Assembly (NCBI GenBank): GCA_028280405.1
Contig: JANQLW010000031.1
Coordinates: 1 to 64,000, forward strand
Direction: 5' to 3'
DNA from: Bacteroidales bacterium
GTDB taxonomy: Bacteria > Bacteroidota > Bacteroidia > Bacteroidales > GCA-2711565
Length of the DNA stretch: 64,000 nt
Numbering within the stretch: the first letter of the stretch is position 1; each line of letters starts with the position of its first letter. The translations under genes were made by a program, and so were the position numbers. A model generated the notes under the pieces. That model worked only from the letters and a program-made list of their open reading frames with translations, made no database searches and was not told the origin of the DNA. This document shows, piece by piece, positions 33,377 to 46,444 of this stretch.

Positions 33377-36301
33377 ATGCCCAGACCATCAGAACATAAA
33401 AACGTACAAGCCCGCATACTAAAATATGCCAATGAAATCGGCTGGACTGTTGTTTCCCAAAGTGAAGCTGAAGGACGAAGGGATTTTGATGCAACTGGTG
33501 TATCTCCGAGAGAGAAAGCAAAAAATGCTTCATGGTTTTTTGTTGATACCCTTTTCGAGAAAGTAAAAGAATTTAATCCTAAGTTTAAAGAGAGCAAAGA
33601 AGAACTACTACGAAAACTAAATCTGCCTTTGCCCACCATTCAAGGCAACCGTGACTTTTTACAGCATCTGCAAGGCGAAAGAACATTTTTCAGCACAGAT
33701 GAAAACCGGGAATTCAATCTTGTTTTGATAAACTATAGTGAACCGGAAAAGAACATTTATGAAGTAACCGAAGAATATTATTTGTTCAACGGGCAATACG
33801 CCAACCGTGAAGATGTAGTTTTTCTTATAAACGGCATCCCTGTTTTAGTTATTGAATGTAAAAATGCAACCAAAGATGAAGCTATAGCCATCGGCATTGA
33901 TCAGATAAGAAGATACCACAGAGAAACCCCGGAATTTTTTGTTCCGCAACAATTATTCACGGTTACTGAAAGTATTGGCTTCTCTTATGGTGTTACCTGG
34001 AACACAATCAGACGAAATATTTTCAATTGGAAGGAAGAAGAAATAGGGAATCTGGAAGCAAAGATTAAATCGTTTTGCAACATTCAAAGCATTCTCGATT
34101 ATTTGAAAAAGTTTATTGTTTTTGCAGAAGCCAATGAAGAACTGAACAAATACATCCTTCGCCAACATCAGAAAACTGCCGTTGAAAAAGTTGTAGAGCG
34201 TGCACATGATGCAACAAAGACAAGAGGATTGGTCTGGCACACTCAAGGTAGCGGCAAAACTTATACAATGATAAAAACAGCGGAATTGCTGTTTAAAGCC
34301 CCTGAAAGTGAAAAGCCAACAATTCTATTAATGATTGACCGCAACGAACTGGAAGACCAGATGTTGAAAAATCTTTCTTCTGTTGGTGTAAATAATGTTG
34401 TTCAAGCGGAGAATATCAGAGACCTTCAGAAACTGCTTAAAAACGATTACCGGGGAATTATTGTCAGCATGATTCACAAATTCCGTGATATGCCAGCAGA
34501 AGTGAATGAAAGAAAAAATATTTACGTTCTGATCGATGAAGCCCATCGAACAACCGGAGGCGATTTAGGCAACTATCTGATGGCTGCTATCCCGAATGCA
34601 ACTTACATTGGATTTACTGGAACACCTGTTGACAAAACCGTTTACGGAAAAGGCACATTCAAAACTTTTGGTATTGATGATAAAAGCGGTTACCTGCACA
34701 AATATTCAATAGCCGACAGTATTGAAGATGGAACCACTTTACCCCTTTTCTACGGAATGGCTCCTAATGAATTACTTGTTCCAAAAGAAATATTGGAAAA
34801 GGAATTTCTTGAGTTAGCGGAAGCCTATGGAGTGAATGACATAGAAGAACTGAATAAAATTCTGGAACGAGCAGTCAATACACGCAACTTTTTAAAGGGA
34901 AAAGAACGAGTTGAAAAGGTGGCTGAATATGTGGCGAAACATTATACAGAGAATGTTGAGCCAATGGGCTACAAAGCATTTCTGGTAGGTGTTGACCGTC
35001 CGGCTTGTGCCATGTACAAAAGAACTTTGGATAAGTTTCTACCATCTGAATATTCAGAAGTGGTTTACACCGGCAACAACAATGATACAGAGGAACTCAA
35101 AACATTTCATAATGATTCTAAAACAGAAAAAGAGATTCGGAAGAACTTTACCAAATTAGAGGAACAACCTAAAATCTTAATAGTAACTGAAAAATTGTTA
35201 ACCGGTTTTGATGCTCCGATTCTTTATGCCATGTATCTTGACAAACCCATGCGAGACCATACTCTTTTACAAGCCATTGCAAGAGTAAATCGTCCATACG
35301 AAAACGAGCAGAAAGATATGGTGAAACCACACGGTTTTGTTTTGGATTTTGTAGGCATATTTGAAAATCTGGAAAAAGCACTTGTATTTGACAGCGAAGA
35401 AATAAACGCAATTGTAAAAGATATTGCTTTGTTAAAACATTTGTTCAAGGCAAAAATGGAAGAGAATGTTCCACCGTATCTAAAACTGATCACACAAAAT
35501 TTTAATGATAAAGACACCGATAATCTGATTTCTCATTTCAGAGATAAATCAAAACGGAAAGAATTCTTCAAACTCTACAAAGAGATTGAAATGCTTTATG
35601 AGATTATTTCACCAGACAAGTTTTTACGTCCATACATTGATGATTACACGACTTTGTCAGCTATTTACAAAGTAGTCAGAAATGCCTACGCAAAAAGAAT
35701 TCAAGTTGATAGAGAATTTCAGCGTAAAACTAATGAGTTAATCCAGAAAAGAGTGTCCGGCACATATCCGTTGTCTGGTGATGAATATTTCGAGGTTAAC
35801 GAAAAATCTATTGAGTATATCAAAAGCCAGAATAAAAATGAGAATACAAAAATTATAAACCTTATTAAAAGCATAGAAAAAATAGCTGAAGAAAAATCTG
35901 ATGATCCTTTCTTAATCGGCTTACTTGAAAGAGCAGAAGCAGTTGAAGAACAATACGAGAACAGACAAGTAAGTACACAAGAGGCTTTGGATGAAATCCG
36001 AAAGATTTACGAAGATGATGTAAAACGAAAAAAAGAGCAAGCAGAAAAAGGATTTGACGGTTTGACTTTCTTTATCTATCGGACATTAATTGACAAAGGT
36101 TTATCAAATTCCGAAGAGACAACAAAAGAGATAAAAGAGGAATTTGTAAAAAACCCAAACTGGAAAACGAGTGAAAAAGAATTAAGAGAATTGCGGAAAG
36201 GTGTTTATTACGCAATACTTTCAGAGGAAGATGATATTGACAAAGCTGCATCCATTATTGAAGCTCTATTTAACCATTTATTCATCGCATACGACTTATA
36301 A
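33377..36301 (+). CDS. hsdR: type I restriction endonuclease subunit
   Basis: This 974-residue motor and nuclease subunit carries an N-terminal PD-(D/E)xK nuclease in which IPVLVIECKNA (about 155-165) gives Glu-Cys-Lys. The superfamily 2 helicase follows: Walker A WHTQGSGKTYTM (about 284-295), DEAHRTTGG (about 385-393), FTGTPVD, and motif VI region LLTGFDAP (about 608-615) and IARVNRP. A helical C-terminus (about 700-970) contacts the M and S subunits. It cleaves unmethylated DNA after translocating it. Start is 2 bp after herA, so this is the fifth gene of the operon. Confidence 0.94.
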   Translation: MPRPSEHKNVQARILKYANEIGWTVVSQSEAEGRRDFDATGVSPREKAKNASWFFVDTLFEKVKEFNPKFKESKEELLRKLNLPLPTIQGNRDFLQHLQGERTFFSTDENREFNLVLINYSEPEKNIYEVTEEYYLFNGQYANREDVVFLINGIPVLVIECKNATKDEAIAIGIDQIRRYHRETPEFFVPQQLFTVTESIGFSYGVTWNTIRRNIFNWKEEEIGNLEAKIKSFCNIQSILDYLKKFIVFAEANEELNKYILRQHQKTAVEKVVERAHDATKTRGLVWHTQGSGKTYTMIKTAELLFKAPESEKPTILLMIDRNELEDQMLKNLSSVGVNNVVQAENIRDLQKLLKNDYRGIIVSMIHKFRDMPAEVNERKNIYVLIDEAHRTTGGDLGNYLMAAIPNATYIGFTGTPVDKTVYGKGTFKTFGIDDKSGYLHKYSIADSIEDGTTLPLFYGMAPNELLVPKEILEKEFLELAEAYGVNDIEELNKILERAVNTRNFLKGKERVEKVAEYVAKHYTENVEPMGYKAFLVGVDRPACAMYKRTLDKFLPSEYSEVVYTGNNNDTEELKTFHNDSKTEKEIRKNFTKLEEQPKILIVTEKLLTGFDAPILYAMYLDKPMRDHTLLQAIARVNRPYENEQKDMVKPHGFVLDFVGIFENLEKALVFDSEEINAIVKDIALLKHLFKAKMEENVPPYLKLITQNFNDKDTDNLISHFRDKSKRKEFFKLYKEIEMLYEIISPDKFLRPYIDDYTTLSAIYKVVRNAYAKRIQVDREFQRKTNELIQKRVSGTYPLSGDEYFEVNEKSIEYIKSQNKNENTKIINLIKSIEKIAEEKSDDPFLIGLLERAEAVEEQYENRQVSTQEALDEIRKIYEDDVKRKKEQAEKGFDGLTFFIYRTLIDKGLSNSEETTKEIKEEFVKNPNWKTSEKELRELRKGVYYAILSEEDDIDKAASIIEALFNHLFIAYDL

Positions 36302-37519: not shown

Positions 37520-39133
37520 ATGACAAAAATGTATAAACAAATTAGAATTTGTAGCAAAGATGGGTGTGGAAAGCAAACATTAAGTTTTTCAATGTTTTGT
37601 GGAGAACATTCGGATATAAACTTGATAAAGCAAAAACTATCAAAAATTACAGATCGGGCAGAGAATCTTTATTTTTCTGGAATTCATTTAGAATCATTAT
37701 CATTAAAAGGAATTGACTTTATCCAGCTTATCATTATTGACTCCGGATTAGAAAATTTAATTTTTGAAAATTGCTTGTTTGACAATTTGATTATTTCAAG
37801 CTCAACCTTACGTGAAGTAAAGTTTATTAATTGTATAATTAAAGATACGGAATGGAATGATGTGAGAATAGAGAATGATTCAATGTTTTATAAATCATCA
37901 ATTACATATTCTAATTTTAACACTTGCCATTTTAATGACCAACCTATTATAGATCAGTGTAAATTTGAATTCAATGGATTTTTGTCTTGTACATTTTTCG
38001 ATATTGATAAATTTAGAAAAGTCAATTTTTCGAATTGTGATTTTTTAAACAGCAGTTTTAGTGAAGTTTATGGAAAACTATTGTTTTTTGATAAATGCAC
38101 TTTTGAAAGAACCAATATTGAAGACACCTGCTTAATTAGCTCAACTTTTCAAAATATTGACAATGATTTTGACCAAGGTGAATACCCCAAATTATGTGAT
38201 TTTACGGATTCTAACTTCAGTGATACAAATTTACCTCCTGAATTTTATATTTGGAATCATATACAAGGAGATAAAATTCAATTTTACTTACGAATAATTT
38301 CACGGATTTCATCTGAAAACCATGCTAATAATTTATGGGTAATTAGTATCTGTATTGGGTGGCTCATCAAACTTGACTATCAATATGGCAGGTCATTTAT
38401 TGATTCTATAATTTCCATATTTAGGGAAAAACTGAATTTGTTTATTGATAGTCGTGACTATGGAGTTCTTGGTAACATAATGGAAGAAATGGGCAATCTC
38501 CCACCGGATTTCAAAAATGCCCCTTCACTTTTACCAGCAAGTATTGACAAATCAATTGAAAATGATGCAAATTGTCAAATAACAATAACGGTTGAATGCA
38601 AAAATTGGACAATTACTAAAATATCATCATTCTACAATAAATTACTTTCTATCCAAAACACACTTCATACTGCCAATGAATTAGAAGTATCACCAATAAG
38701 AAGAGGTAGTATTATCCAAACTATCATTGGCGAATGCATCCCTCTTGTTAAGATAGCAGGGATCCTTGCTGGATTCATTAGTTTTACAATCGCAACATCT
38801 AAAGGTATTCTCCTTTTAAGGGAAAAATATTTAACTATTAAGCAATGTGAAATCAACTTAAAATATCAAAATGAACTTAATCAAGAACAGTTAAATGGTA
38901 TTAAGTTAGATAATGAAATTAAGGAAATCGATATAAAAAAGTTAAAAAAACAATATCAAGATGAAATTCGCCAAGAGTTATATTCTTATGCGCTTGATAA
39001 TGGAGTTAACTTAGAAAATTTTATAGAGAGTGAAGAAGGCTTGGAATTACAAGAAATAATAATGAAATTTCATAAAGAATTTCCAATCAAAGAATTCAAG
39101 ATAATTATAGGAGAAGATAAAAATAATACCTAG
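37520..39133 (+). CDS. pentapeptide-repeat membrane protein with Cys/His zinc site
   Basis: This 537-residue protein starts with a Cys-x4-Cys-x11-Cys-x2-His stretch (residues about 11-31), a likely zinc site. Residues about 55-245 hold degenerate pentapeptide-like repeats (the F/L-N-x-C/S-x pattern, for example 'FENCLFDNLI' and 'FSNCDFLNSS'), expected to fold as a right-handed quadrangular helix. A helical region follows, then one membrane segment near 411-430 and a Lys/Glu-rich coiled coil to the end. Family is unknown. This order of zinc site, repeat solenoid and membrane anchor is uncommon. It is monocistronic and followed by a 1.4-kb gap. Confidence 0.7.
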   Translation: MTKMYKQIRICSKDGCGKQTLSFSMFCGEHSDINLIKQKLSKITDRAENLYFSGIHLESLSLKGIDFIQLIIIDSGLENLIFENCLFDNLIISSSTLREVKFINCIIKDTEWNDVRIENDSMFYKSSITYSNFNTCHFNDQPIIDQCKFEFNGFLSCTFFDIDKFRKVNFSNCDFLNSSFSEVYGKLLFFDKCTFERTNIEDTCLISSTFQNIDNDFDQGEYPKLCDFTDSNFSDTNLPPEFYIWNHIQGDKIQFYLRIISRISSENHANNLWVISICIGWLIKLDYQYGRSFIDSIISIFREKLNLFIDSRDYGVLGNIMEEMGNLPPDFKNAPSLLPASIDKSIENDANCQITITVECKNWTITKISSFYNKLLSIQNTLHTANELEVSPIRRGSIIQTIIGECIPLVKIAGILAGFISFTIATSKGILLLREKYLTIKQCEINLKYQNELNQEQLNGIKLDNEIKEIDIKKLKKQYQDEIRQELYSYALDNGVNLENFIESEEGLELQEIIMKFHKEFPIKEFKIIIGEDKNNT

Positions 39134-41734: not shown

Positions 41735-43645
41735 ATGTTACCGCTAGTTAGTAAAGATTGTTATTTAAAACAGTTCGCAAATAGCCCGGAAAGTCAATTT
41801 TTGAGTAAAAAATACGATTTAGGTGATGAAGTGCTGAATAGACATTCATTTTATATAAACCTTACAGATTATTTTTCCCCTTTATTTAATATTGAAGAAT
41901 CTAATCTGGTTAAATTATCAGGTGCAAGTTATTTATATTTTAAAGCATTGATTCATTTTGATAAGATAGCTGATAATGATGAAAATGAAGGTTCTTTACC
42001 TGATCTTATTGTAATCTTTCAGGAATCAATTAGAATACTTTCAGGTCTCTTTCCTGATAAAGAATTTTGGGAAAATCTATATAATAGCTTTAGGGTTTTT
42101 GTAGAAACTAATAAATTAGAAAAAACACTATTAATCGAACCAGAAATTAACGAAAGCCTCTTTATCAAAATTGCAAAGAATAAATCTATAATGACCCATG
42201 CAATGGTTGATGCCTTAACCATTTTAGGGAAAAATAAAAAACATGAGGTACAACTGAAAAGTCTTCTTGCTCATATTCATATTGCGTTTCAGATCAGGGA
42301 TGATATAGATGATTTTAAGAAAGACAAAGATAATAAGCAATTTACTTTGGCAATTTTTAAAGTTGAAAACTATATTAAAAAAAATGGTCTAAACTATGTA
42401 TCTACAAATGATTTATATAAAGTATTGTATGGGAGTGGGATATCAGTTTCACTTATTGAACTCGCAATTGAGCATTATCAAGTCGCCAATTCAATTGTAA
42501 AAGATTTAAACTTGATAGAACTCGAAACATTTATTGAAAACGAAATAGAAGATTGTAAATGCCAGATTAAAGAAATAAACTTAATTAAAAGAAAATCGAT
42601 TGATTGCAACAAAAGAAGTAATGAACCATTATTTAACAAAATTACCTTGAGTGAGAAAGCAATTTTAACTTCTTTAAAGTCCACTTTATTACTATTTGAC
42701 AAAGAACAGAAATCAAATGGTTGGAATGATTTTATTACTTCTGCCGGAATTTCAACAGGTTGGGCAACATTTTTTATTTGCTTGAATTTATTTGAAGCAG
42801 ATGAAATAGAAATTGTAAAAGACTATTTAGCAGATAATAAAAAGAACATTTATGCTTATAATGAAAGCTTAATTCAAGATTGCGATTCTTTATCCTTTCG
42901 CATAAATGCAGATCTTAAATTAAGCAAAAATACGGATAAACAATTGTTGGCACTATGGAAATCCTATGAACATAATGGACAATGGTCTACATATAAATAT
43001 GATGAAAAACTAGTTAAATATCTTAAACTGGAAAATGAAAACGACATTAAAGGATGGACTTCAAAACATGATTGTGTTTCTTCTTATGCTGCTTTTGTTT
43101 TAAGTGAAAATAACATAGATAAAAGTTTACTGAATAAAACTATTAATTCACTTGTAAATAAGTTCAAAGTTGAACATGGGCTTCTATCTTATTGGTGGAC
43201 CAGTTCATTGTATTCATTATACTTTTTTCTAAGAGCCTTAATGAATATAAAATATGAAATTGGTTTTATCCAAAATATCATTGAAGATAAAATTATTCAA
43301 CAGCAAAACAAAGATGGATCATGGAAAGATGAGTTTAATCAAAAATCTGTTTTTTATACAGCTATGATAACTCATTTATTGATCTTAAATGACTTTAATA
43401 AATATGAAGAATACATTTCTAATGGAATCTCTTTTCTTTTAAAAAGCCAGAAAAGAGATGGAAGTTATGAAACTATACCAATTCTTAAAATACCAGCACC
43501 TGATATATCAGAACTAAAAAGAATAAAACATTGGAGAAAAGGATCTTTAGGGACGAATACAATTGTTGATGATCACAAAAGGCTTTTTACATCATCCATG
43601 GTTTATAAAACAATGAAGTGCTATTACATACAATTATGGGGTTAA
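41735..43645 (+). CDS. isoprenoid-synthase/toroid-cyclase-like fusion protein
   Basis: This 636-residue protein appears to join two folds. Residues about 1-290 resemble an all-helical class I isoprenyl diphosphate synthase; FQIRDDIDDFKKDKDN (about 186-201) is a second Asp-rich motif, while the first is weak (FDKIADNDEN, near 76). Residues about 300-636 look like the alpha-alpha toroid of terpene cyclases and protein prenyltransferases, with repeat motifs QNKDGSW and QKRDGSYE and a late VDDHKRLFTSSM block. No class II DxDD motif is seen. It heads the cluster and overlaps the M50 gene. A role in making or attaching an isoprenoid group is an inference. Confidence 0.68.
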   Translation: MLPLVSKDCYLKQFANSPESQFLSKKYDLGDEVLNRHSFYINLTDYFSPLFNIEESNLVKLSGASYLYFKALIHFDKIADNDENEGSLPDLIVIFQESIRILSGLFPDKEFWENLYNSFRVFVETNKLEKTLLIEPEINESLFIKIAKNKSIMTHAMVDALTILGKNKKHEVQLKSLLAHIHIAFQIRDDIDDFKKDKDNKQFTLAIFKVENYIKKNGLNYVSTNDLYKVLYGSGISVSLIELAIEHYQVANSIVKDLNLIELETFIENEIEDCKCQIKEINLIKRKSIDCNKRSNEPLFNKITLSEKAILTSLKSTLLLFDKEQKSNGWNDFITSAGISTGWATFFICLNLFEADEIEIVKDYLADNKKNIYAYNESLIQDCDSLSFRINADLKLSKNTDKQLLALWKSYEHNGQWSTYKYDEKLVKYLKLENENDIKGWTSKHDCVSSYAAFVLSENNIDKSLLNKTINSLVNKFKVEHGLLSYWWTSSLYSLYFFLRALMNIKYEIGFIQNIIEDKIIQQQNKDGSWKDEFNQKSVFYTAMITHLLILNDFNKYEEYISNGISFLLKSQKRDGSYETIPILKIPAPDISELKRIKHWRKGSLGTNTIVDDHKRLFTSSMVYKTMKCYYIQLWG

Positions 43646-44823
43646 TCGTTGAAAATATAAATGTAAGAAAGGAATCAGAAAATAAATGGGTTCTTTCATC
43701 TCCGCATAAAAATCTTTTAGTATCTGAGAATGTTTATTTGCTCTTTAAACAATTGTTACATTCTGAAAGTTTTGAAGAATCATATCAAAAATTTAAGAAC
43801 CATTTCAAACAAGATATATCTTATGCGAAATACCATAAGTTGATTGACGATCACTTCAAAGGTAAAGGATTCCTTACTAATGAAAGAACAACAAATAAAA
43901 AGAAATCCTATCTAACACTAAAAATAGATTTAATACCAAAAAGATGGGGGGAAAAAATATCATATCTCTTTGAATTTTTGTTTTACCCTAAAACCTTTAA
44001 AATCCTTTCAACTTTTCTTTTGCTATTCATAATATATATATGTTATAAATACAATGCACATAGTTATAATTTTAACGCTACTGATATATTAGTATCAATT
44101 ATTATAGTCAACTTGTCTATTGTTTTTCATGAGTTCGGGCATATATCAGCTTATAATTACTTTATAAAGAATTTCAAACTTAATTCATATAATACAAGTG
44201 GACAAATTGGCTTTGGCTTCTATTTTATATTTCCTGTTTTTTATTCAAATGTTACTCAGGCTTGGAGCTTAGAGAAAAACTATCGTCAAATTATCAATAT
44301 TGCTGGTATTTATTTTCAGATAATCATTTCAGCCATTCTATTTATATGCTTTTTAATATTTAATTTAAACTATTTATTACTTTCATCTTATTTAGTTTTC
44401 CTATATGCCCTGTTTGAGTTAAACCCATTTATTAGAAGTGATGGATACTGGATATTGTCAGATGCAACAAATAAACATAATTTAATTCAAAAATCTAAAC
44501 TAAAATTAATTGAGTTTTTAAAAACAAAAAATGGTAAAAATTTTAACTGGCTGGTAATCTATGCTTCGGGTAATTATATGTTAATGCTAATCTTTGTCCT
44601 GGGAATATTATTATATTCCGGGCAGAGCTTTTTAAAATTTCCTTATGTACTCGCTAAATCTTTATATAGTGCCTTATTATTTGACTTCTCAAAAATCGAA
44701 TTTGATAGTTCAATGATATATTATCTAGGAATTTACATAATAGTTTTAACCTATGGATATAGGTTGATTCGAATGATATTTGGTAATAGTAAACGGAAGA
44801 AACTATTAGCAATTAATAAATAA
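43636..44823 (+). CDS. M50-family membrane peptidase with a PqqD-like N-terminus
   Basis: The first 85 residues of this protein of about 395 residues look like a small winged-helix (PqqD/RRE-like) peptide-binding domain. Membrane helices follow from about 125. The catalytic motif IVFHEFGHISA (His-Glu-x-x-His, about 168-178) and the second motif ELNPFIRSDGYWILSD (about 264-279; Asp-Gly) are those of M50 peptidases found in ribosomal-peptide clusters. A GTG at 43618 is in frame; I prefer the ATG at 43636, which overlaps the stop of the preceding gene by 10 bp. Likely role: cleavage of the small protein encoded next, at or in the membrane. Confidence 0.78.
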   Translation: MGLIVENINVRKESENKWVLSSPHKNLLVSENVYLLFKQLLHSESFEESYQKFKNHFKQDISYAKYHKLIDDHFKGKGFLTNERTTNKKKSYLTLKIDLIPKRWGEKISYLFEFLFYPKTFKILSTFLLLFIIYICYKYNAHSYNFNATDILVSIIIVNLSIVFHEFGHISAYNYFIKNFKLNSYNTSGQIGFGFYFIFPVFYSNVTQAWSLEKNYRQIINIAGIYFQIIISAILFICFLIFNLNYLLLSSYLVFLYALFELNPFIRSDGYWILSDATNKHNLIQKSKLKLIEFLKTKNGKNFNWLVIYASGNYMLMLIFVLGILLYSGQSFLKFPYVLAKSLYSALLFDFSKIEFDSSMIYYLGIYIIVLTYGYRLIRMIFGNSKRKKLLAINK

Positions 44824-44853
44824 AAATATCTTCCTTAACTAAATTTTTAAATT

Positions 44854-45024
44854 ATGGATAACAAATTTATTGAAAATTTCAAGTCTGAAGAACTTGAAGA
44901 AAGGTTAGAGTTTGGTAAATGGCGCTTAAGACCTAGCACAATTGAGGCACCTATTGAAACGGAAGATGGATGGGTTGAAGGTAAATTCTATGGTGGTAAA
45001 TTAACCATTAACTTTGAAGAATAA
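44854..45024 (+). CDS. small 56-residue peptide, candidate precursor
   Basis: An ATG-initiated 56-residue frame sits 30 bp after the M50 gene on the same strand. It has an acidic helical first half (MDNKFIENFKSEELEERLEF) and a second half rich in Gly, Trp, Tyr and Thr (GKWRLRPSTIEAP then GWVEGKFYGGKL). No Cys is present. Size, position and the two-part layout are typical of a precursor with leader and core. It was not tested against any family. If the M50 protein cuts it, the C-terminal 20-25 residues would be the core. Confidence 0.6.
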   Translation: MDNKFIENFKSEELEERLEFGKWRLRPSTIEAPIETEDGWVEGKFYGGKLTINFEE

Positions 45025-45034
45025 CAAAAACTTA

Positions 45035-45073
45035 TTAACTTAGGAGTTAACATTTAATTAACTCTTAAGTTAA
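45035..45073 (+). terminator. 16-bp hairpin after the small peptide
   Basis: TTAACTTAGGAGTTAA (45035-45050) pairs with TTAACTCTTAAGTTAA (45058-45073), with one G-T pair and a 7-nt loop. It has no long T-run, so it may be a weak terminator or an mRNA stabiliser that sets the small-peptide level above that of the next gene. Confidence 0.55.
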
Positions 45074-45088
45074 TTTACTTAAACCAAA

Positions 45089-46444
45089 ATGAAAAACATA
45101 GTATTACTATTTCTTTTATTGATCTGTTTGAATTCTTTTTCCCAATCCAGTAAAATAGTATACGTATATGATAGAGAAACTCCAATCTCATTTGCTCATA
45201 TTTCGATTGAAGGTGAACTTAAACTGATTAGTGGTGCTAATGGAGAGTTTATAATTAATTTAAATAATCTAATAAAAGAAGAAATTACAATTTCACATAT
45301 TGCATATCACAACAAAACGCTTAATGTAAATAAAATTAAAGATACAATTTATCTTATGCCAAAATCTTTTGAGCTTGATGAAATAGTAGTATCCTCTATT
45401 AATATCAGAGCACTTCTGGAAAATGCCTTTCAGAAAGTAAAATATCAGAAAAACTTAAACTATTTAAGTGCACGCTTAATTGCAATAAATGATTCACTAG
45501 TTTATTATACAGAAAAGCAGTTCAAATACATAAAACATGAAAACAGGAACTTAAAAAGAAAATTATTTCACACGATTAGTTTTAAATCAAGCGAATCAGA
45601 TACAAGCAGAGTAAATTTCCCTTTTATAAGCACTTTGTTAAAAAACCCTTATGAAACTTACCAAAAAAAGGAAGCCCTAAACAGATTAATTAAAAATATT
45701 GTTATTGATAAAATTTTTACTAACACCATAAAGCTGAAATCAATTACGGACTCAACAACGACCTATCTATTTATTGATAAAAAAAGTAAACGATTACTCA
45801 GGCTCGAGAAAAAAATTAACCTTAAAAACAAACAAAGTAATCCTTACGTTGATGGAGGTATAAACTTATCATACAATTTTAATACAGATAATAGTAAAGT
45901 TTTTATAAAATCATTTAAATATGAACATTTGCTCTATGCAAAAACAAAAAATGGCTTTGCTAAAATAAAAATGGAAATTTTTGATATAAATATTCCCAAT
46001 ATTAAATATGTAAATAGCTTTAATTTTAAAACACTCAGAAAATTAAAAGAGTATAAGCAAAATCAAAAAGTTATTGATGCCGGTTTATATAGATATTTTG
46101 AGAAATCTGAATTAAGCAAGGATAAACCAAAAAGAGACTCGATATCAGTTTCATATTTTATGTTCCGTAATAAATCATTTGACAAACTTAAGTTTAATAA
46201 ATCTTCGTTAAACTTGAATCTTCCAAAGCCTTATTATATGGCCATATATAATAAGAATGCAATGATGTATGATTACTATCCTTCAAAATTTAAAATAAAT
46301 TTTGATTTGAATTCAGTTGATGTTAACCAAAATTTTAATTATCCCAAAAGAGATAGCTTCAATCCTTATGGGACGAGGCATGACCCTAAAGCCACATTTT
46401 TAATGGGTATTACTAATCTTATTTTTGAAAAGCTTTTTGAATAA
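45089..46444 (+). CDS. secreted carboxypeptidase-regulatory-like domain protein
   Basis: This 451-residue protein has a clear signal peptide (KNIVLLFLLLICLNSFSQ, cut near residue 19). A carboxypeptidase regulatory-like (beta-sandwich) domain spans about 20-95, with the pattern 'ISFAHISIEG...GANGEFIINL'. The long remainder is rich in Lys, Asn and aromatic residues, as in DUF5686/outer-membrane-associated Bacteroidota proteins. It lies 64 bp after the small peptide and closes the cluster. It could transport, receive or protect against the product, but this is not shown. Confidence 0.72.
   Translation: MKNIVLLFLLLICLNSFSQSSKIVYVYDRETPISFAHISIEGELKLISGANGEFIINLNNLIKEEITISHIAYHNKTLNVNKIKDTIYLMPKSFELDEIVVSSINIRALLENAFQKVKYQKNLNYLSARLIAINDSLVYYTEKQFKYIKHENRNLKRKLFHTISFKSSESDTSRVNFPFISTLLKNPYETYQKKEALNRLIKNIVIDKIFTNTIKLKSITDSTTTYLFIDKKSKRLLRLEKKINLKNKQSNPYVDGGINLSYNFNTDNSKVFIKSFKYEHLLYAKTKNGFAKIKMEIFDINIPNIKYVNSFNFKTLRKLKEYKQNQKVIDAGLYRYFEKSELSKDKPKRDSISVSYFMFRNKSFDKLKFNKSSLNLNLPKPYYMAIYNKNAMMYDYYPSKFKINFDLNSVDVNQNFNYPKRDSFNPYGTRHDPKATFLMGITNLIFEKLFE

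Follow-up and report, generated by a model that had tools for sequence, protein, structure and literature searches.

A sequence-divergent gene cluster in a Bacteroidales bacterium, very probably of the ChrPC kind of terpenylated ribosomal peptides

Organisation of the locus and domains of its enzymes

The window, that is the whole stretch of 64,000 nucleotides that was analysed, carries on its forward strand a gene cluster in the order fusion enzyme, M50 metalloprotease, precursor peptide and secreted companion, with a hairpin behind the precursor gene. These five elements had been named in an earlier note on this DNA, and each was found where it had been placed. Upstream of the cluster, the window encodes an HsdR protein of type I restriction (33377-36301) and a protein with pentapeptide repeats (37520-39133).

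The fusion enzyme (41735-43645, + strand), a protein of 636 residues containing FQIRDDIDDF, joins a trans-IDS-like domain (P domain) to a monodomain class II terpene cyclase domain (C domain). In a single-sequence search it gave weak Pfam matches under cut-off, and its sequence without alignment matched MstE at 4e-7. With a profile from a 20-row homologue alignment, the N half matched the trans-prenyltransferase 8hdl (2.5e-6) and the C half matched MstE (8e-23) and 8pak (2e-26), the matches to MstE and to two solved monodomain "squalene-hopene cyclases" spanning these last two values. In the AlphaFold model (pLDDT 75, pTM 0.52), residues 1-275 superpose on polyprenyl synthases with a Z of about 21 and residues about 302-634 superpose on MstE with a Z of 29 and an rmsd of 3.0 Å over 309 aligned residues; because the pTM is that low, the arrangement of the two domains is unsure. 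The MstE-like toroid covers residues about 302-636 (42638-43642, + strand; model range 301-634 in VIA-align against MstE). Profile and structure searches therefore both find the domain combination of the ChrPC type, in which a trans-IDS-like domain is joined to a monodomain class II cyclase of the MstE kind.

Both Asp-rich motifs of trans-IDS-like peptide prenyltransferases are present in the P domain. The first, D76-KIA-D80 (41960-41974, + strand), is a degenerate DDxxD in which Lys replaces the second Asp while the first and last Asp are kept, D76 and D80 being invariant in 20 aligned homologues. In the second, D189-D190-I-D-D193 (42299-42313, + strand), D189, D190 and D193 are invariant in the same number of homologues, and Q186, three residues upstream, is conserved in at least 90% of them. 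The genome also encodes an ordinary isoprenyl synthase that has this Gln, a position associated with Trp recognition, and the residue is therefore not diagnostic. Since two ordinary polyprenyl synthases are encoded elsewhere in this genome, an isoprenyl donor is likely to be available. In the C domain, the alignment of homologues places the class II acid motif at D382-C-D384-S385 (DxDS; 42878-42889, + strand), and the catalytic Asp residues expected of such a cyclase, D382 and D384, are invariant (n=20). D384 falls on the second Asp in the DADTT motif of MstE and is, by this alignment, the putative counterpart of MstE D109, the residue replaced by A and by N in PDB 6sbd and 6sbe (MstE residues were counted, with an offset of one fixed by Y157 of 6sbf being construct position 158).

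The open reading frame of the M50 metalloprotease, listed from a GTG at 43618 to 44823, overlaps the fusion gene, and the ATG at 43636 (ATGGGGTTAA), which spans the fusion stop codon, is the likelier start (43636-44823, + strand). The protein contains FHEFGH and ELNPFIRSDGYW, and its HExxH and NPxxRxDGYW motifs are near invariant among 18 relatives. It matched the daptide HExxH protease family NF041824 at 1.5e-23 and 83.6 bits (cut-off 300), the YydH/LiaK epipeptide protease family NF058609 at 54.5 bits (cut-off 225) and Pfam M50 at 0.0011, under cut-off. Like these two families of RiPP clusters it is an M50-type protein with HExxH, but with scores below their cut-offs it is related to them and not a member of either. 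The N-terminal domain (43639-43881, + strand), which the earlier note had described as PqqD-like, consists of beta strands and three helices in the model (pLDDT 82). Its top structural matches are of the RRE type (TigE, a TbiB1-leader complex, PqqD, TruD and McbB), each weak with E > 0.6; as Foldseek returned no significant match to the M50 model, these names are suggestive of a PqqD/RRE-like domain and of a putative leader binder.

The motifs and these weak structural matches suggest that the M50 protein likely binds and cuts the leader of the adjoining peptide. That the peptide would be modified in the same way with another protease cutting its leader, the M50 protein serving for example as a membrane anchor or in trimming after export, is rather unlikely: the daptide protease match is below cut-off only, which leaves some room for this alternative, but the near-invariant HExxH and NPxxRxDGYW and the resemblance of the N-terminal domain to leader-binding RRE domains speak against it.

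The precursor peptide and its conserved neighbourhood

The precursor peptide of 56 residues (44854-45024, + strand) is composed of a leader, M1-E19, and a core from about F20, with W23 (44920-44922) as the candidate acceptor and a second Trp at W40 (44971-44973). BLAST of this peptide against the neighbourhoods of fusion homologues revealed adjoining leader-like peptides, and motif and profile searches defined a leader family, F-x-V-E-E-L-E-x-R-x-E, with five invariant columns in 26 sequences. The leader recurs next to homologues of the fusion and M50 genes in about 20 further genomes, many of them unrelated, so that the 56-residue frame, whose conservation beside the M50 gene the earlier note had left to be checked, is beyond chance. 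Pfam and NCBIfam searches with the precursors matched nothing useful. In its own genome the window peptide is the only precursor matched by the peptide profile (E 3.1e-12). Members of the leader family also occur as six copies in tandem in Chryseobacterium defluvii (L024).

Trp is the acceptor for all characterised trans-IDS-like peptide prenyltransferases (PMC13290415). Among 31 precursors, Trp is present in 30 cores and in none of the leaders, and it lies at most 12 residues after the leader in 29, about 4 being expected at background frequency. The sole Trp-less core (L020), with ten Cys, is paired with a free-standing P domain without fused cyclase. The window core resembles an Apibacter core, their endings being YGGKLTINF and YGGKWTINF.

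Four families recur in the compared loci: the precursor, the secreted CarboxypepD_reg-like protein, the fusion and the M50 protein. The companion was found in 20 loci, the fusion in 26 (counting two toroids and one P domain that stand alone) and the M50 protein in 22, the compared loci containing near-duplicates (L029-L032 and L038). The window companion (45089-46444, + strand; 451 residues), which had been noted as a secreted regulatory-like protein, matches CarbopepD_reg_2 at E 1e-6, slightly under the curated cut-off, and the recurrence of its gene in the module makes it part of the system. The usual order elsewhere, precursor, companion, fusion and M50, differs from that of the window.

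The hairpin after the precursor stop (45034-45074, + strand) has a stem of 17 bp and a folding energy of -17.3 kcal/mol, with a z of -6.0 and none of 200 dinucleotide shuffles as good. Its position is kept in relatives: a strong hairpin follows the precursor stop, ahead of the next gene, in 15 of the 17 places tested (intergenic gap of at least 20 nt, mononucleotide shuffles), with unrelated sequences. This arrangement is compatible with a partial terminator or with stabilisation of the mRNA in favour of the precursor.

The fusion was detected by BLAST in 10 of 395 genomes of the phylum and, by profile, at full length in 3 cases among 395 genomes of the class, the window included; the family is rare. 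The scan of genome contigs used a Chryseobacterium-like subset of the alignment, and the resulting set is biased to that clade. The peptide profile matched only 11 of the 395 phylum genomes; in nine of them BLAST also detects the fusion, and in a tenth a profile does, a pairing that is partly circular as those loci had supplied the peptide profile. The independent cases are three, of which two, both found by the peptide profile alone, were positive. In G004, of the same genus as the window's genome and the only one matched among 20 relatives, a 4-kb contig carries the peptide, then the companion, then a truncated fusion; the M50 gene was not found in this assembly of 1050 contigs, which breaks inside the fusion gene. 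In G149, one of the two genomes among the 11 that BLAST with the fusion had not detected, the fusion (4e-136) and the M50 gene (1e-110) lie beside the peptide. A precursor with a candidate Trp acceptor adjoins the enzyme in these two held-out cases as in the window. In the third case, G425, the other of those two genomes, no fusion or M50 gene was found near the leader-like peptide (L082:7867-8004), which contains Cys and lacks Trp, and another RiPP class may use this leader too.

Radical SAM genes are added to the module in L016, L034, L039, L040, L042 and L081. L016 (1635-10379) also has a P450, the only Trp of its precursor is near the C-terminus, and in its enzyme the Gln that is conserved ahead of the second Asp motif is a Cys. 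In L020 (21-6439), a free-standing P domain and an M50 gene stand with a gene resembling TonB receptors and with two peptides that are rich in Cys, bear the leader and have no Trp, which must mean either an acceptor other than Trp or a different chemistry. L029, L030, L031 and L032 are near-identical clusters with identical precursors, from Epilithonimonas lactis, bovis and tenax and Chryseobacterium ureilyticum, a likeness due either to recent transfer between genera or to mislabelled genomes. In Chryseobacterium mucoviscidosis (L038:7923-10852), the fusion gene is in pieces around a 305-residue ORF that is related to one in L015 and is probably a transposase. An in-frame TAG splits the fusion gene of L014 (6049-8037; G111), a pseudogene or a sequencing error, and L060 (7270-8388; G155) has, beside an open frame of 2412 residues, a second, C-terminal fusion-like piece with stops, possibly what is left of another cluster that has decayed. 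The toroids of L017, L023 and L061 were set aside as free-standing and cyclase-like, with no precursor or M50 gene found nearby.

Relation to known systems and competing explanations

The earlier note had read the locus as a hybrid isoprenoid and ribosomal-peptide cluster, a reading for which the conserved precursor, the identities of the domains and the catalytic motifs now give strong support, and had added that no such system was described, which is outdated. The first description of RiPPs with polycyclic isoprenoid groups dates from 2024 (Hubrich et al., Chem 2024, cited in PMC13290415), and in ChrPC, according to PMC13290415, a trans-IDS-like prenyltransferase domain fused to a class II terpene cyclase domain, as in the window, prenylates a Trp of a ribosomal precursor and cyclises the chain. 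Homologues of the module are present in Chryseobacterium genomes (L024, L032 and L038), and these stood in for ChrPC itself in the comparison, in which the window enzyme has DxDS and WWTS against DxDD and RWYYG.

Other systems share features with the cluster. NctPC, too, fuses a prenyltransferase to a cyclase, modifies the Trp of a peptide and has a C domain like MstE, but its P domain is an ABBA-barrel prenyltransferase and not of the trans-IDS fold (PMC13290415). ComQ/ComX and PalQ/PalX resemble the window in that a trans-IDS-like enzyme prenylates the Trp of a short ribosomal peptide, but they are without a cyclase domain, and ComQ lacks the second Asp-rich motif that is intact in the window enzyme (PMC10853753); the fused cyclase and the intact motif rule out an enzyme of the ComQ type. 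MstE shares the fold and the acid motif of the C half, whereas it is a free-standing enzyme whose substrate is a small-molecule meroterpenoid precursor.

It is accordingly very likely that the cluster makes a RiPP of the ChrPC kind, in which the P domain would prenylate a core Trp, the C domain would cyclise the attached chain and the M50 protein would bind and cut the leader. This reading follows from domain identities established by sequence and fold, from motifs invariant in 20 homologues, from the leader conserved beside the enzymes, from the placement of the Trp, from G004 and G149 and from the precedent of ChrPC; against it stand the identity of only 20-22% to the Chryseobacterium-like homologues, the DxDS motif, the Lys in the first Asp motif, the Gln that does not discriminate, the unsure domain arrangement of the model and the lone peptide of G425.

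A prenylation without ring closure, with the C domain of the window clade inactive as a cyclase or merely binding the chain and a linear product as in ComX, is improbable. It would agree with the Ser at the last acidic position of DxDD in this clade and with the single-domain P relative of L020, where a cyclase is dispensable, but both key residues, D382 and D384, are invariant, the solved monodomain cyclases 8pak and 8paj have D-A-D-S and MstE has D-A-D-T, and the cyclase fold is fully kept in the model. That the fusion makes a free small-molecule terpene, the adjoining peptide belonging elsewhere, is very improbable: both domains are terpene-enzyme folds and bifunctional class I/class II fusions yield free terpenes in other organisms, but the precursor leader and the PqqD-M50 protein travel with the fusion over large distances, with the Trp adjoining the leader, the first Asp motif is degenerate, and the fusion matches a peptide pathway, that of ChrPC (PMC13290415), and not a known non-peptide one.

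A separate enzyme clade and the proposed pathway

In the homologue tree, two clades are joined by a 100/100 branch. The window clade, with DxDS and WWTS, comprises the window, G004, L014, L015, L016, the first copy of L033 and L059, and the other clade is Chryseobacterium-like, with DxDD and RWYYG; the window sits on a long branch, and its grouping with L014 may be artefactual. In Tenacibaculum (L033:5705-12343), tandem fusions, one per clade, occur with three precursors and one M50 protein of 691 residues. Because the window enzyme belongs to a separate clade, is 20-22% identical to the Chryseobacterium-like homologues and has DxDS and not DxDD, its product is not readable from the known system. 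Tentatively, the window clade could make a terpenyl peptide different from the ChrPC kind, with another ring system, possibly with both core Trp modified and with the companion in a role that has yet to be reported for such peptides, that of a dedicated receptor in the envelope or of a factor for self-protection, although this is the less likely case.

The identities of the genes, their motifs, the conserved module and the placement of the Trp are established by the comparison; for the ChrPC-kind reading, the chemical steps and their order, the donor length and the roles of the M50 protein and the companion are what we infer. The acidic leader of the precursor would be recognised by the PqqD/RRE-like domain of the M50 protein, and possibly also by the fusion itself. 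The P domain would then take an isoprenyl group, of a likely length of C15-C20, from its diphosphate and attach it to W23 of the core, W40 being a second candidate acceptor. In the C domain, D384 would protonate the far end of the attached chain, which would be folded into rings, after which the membrane M50 protease would cut in or next to the leader, so that a terpene-bearing, amphipathic peptide is freed. How much precursor is made relative to the downstream products is probably set by the hairpin, and the secreted companion may be a dedicated envelope partner in export, as a receptor or in self-protection.

Taken together, the window very probably holds a sequence-divergent case of the already described ChrPC-kind peptides, the kind itself not being new. 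Terpenylated ribosomal peptides are a very young class, and the comparison finds the four-gene module of precursor, secreted companion, fusion and M50 protein scattered in Bacteroidota, Balneolota and Ignavibacteriota, locates the Trp that is the likely acceptor, distinguishes a second clade of the enzyme and provides in FxVEELExRxE a leader motif that is usable for mining.
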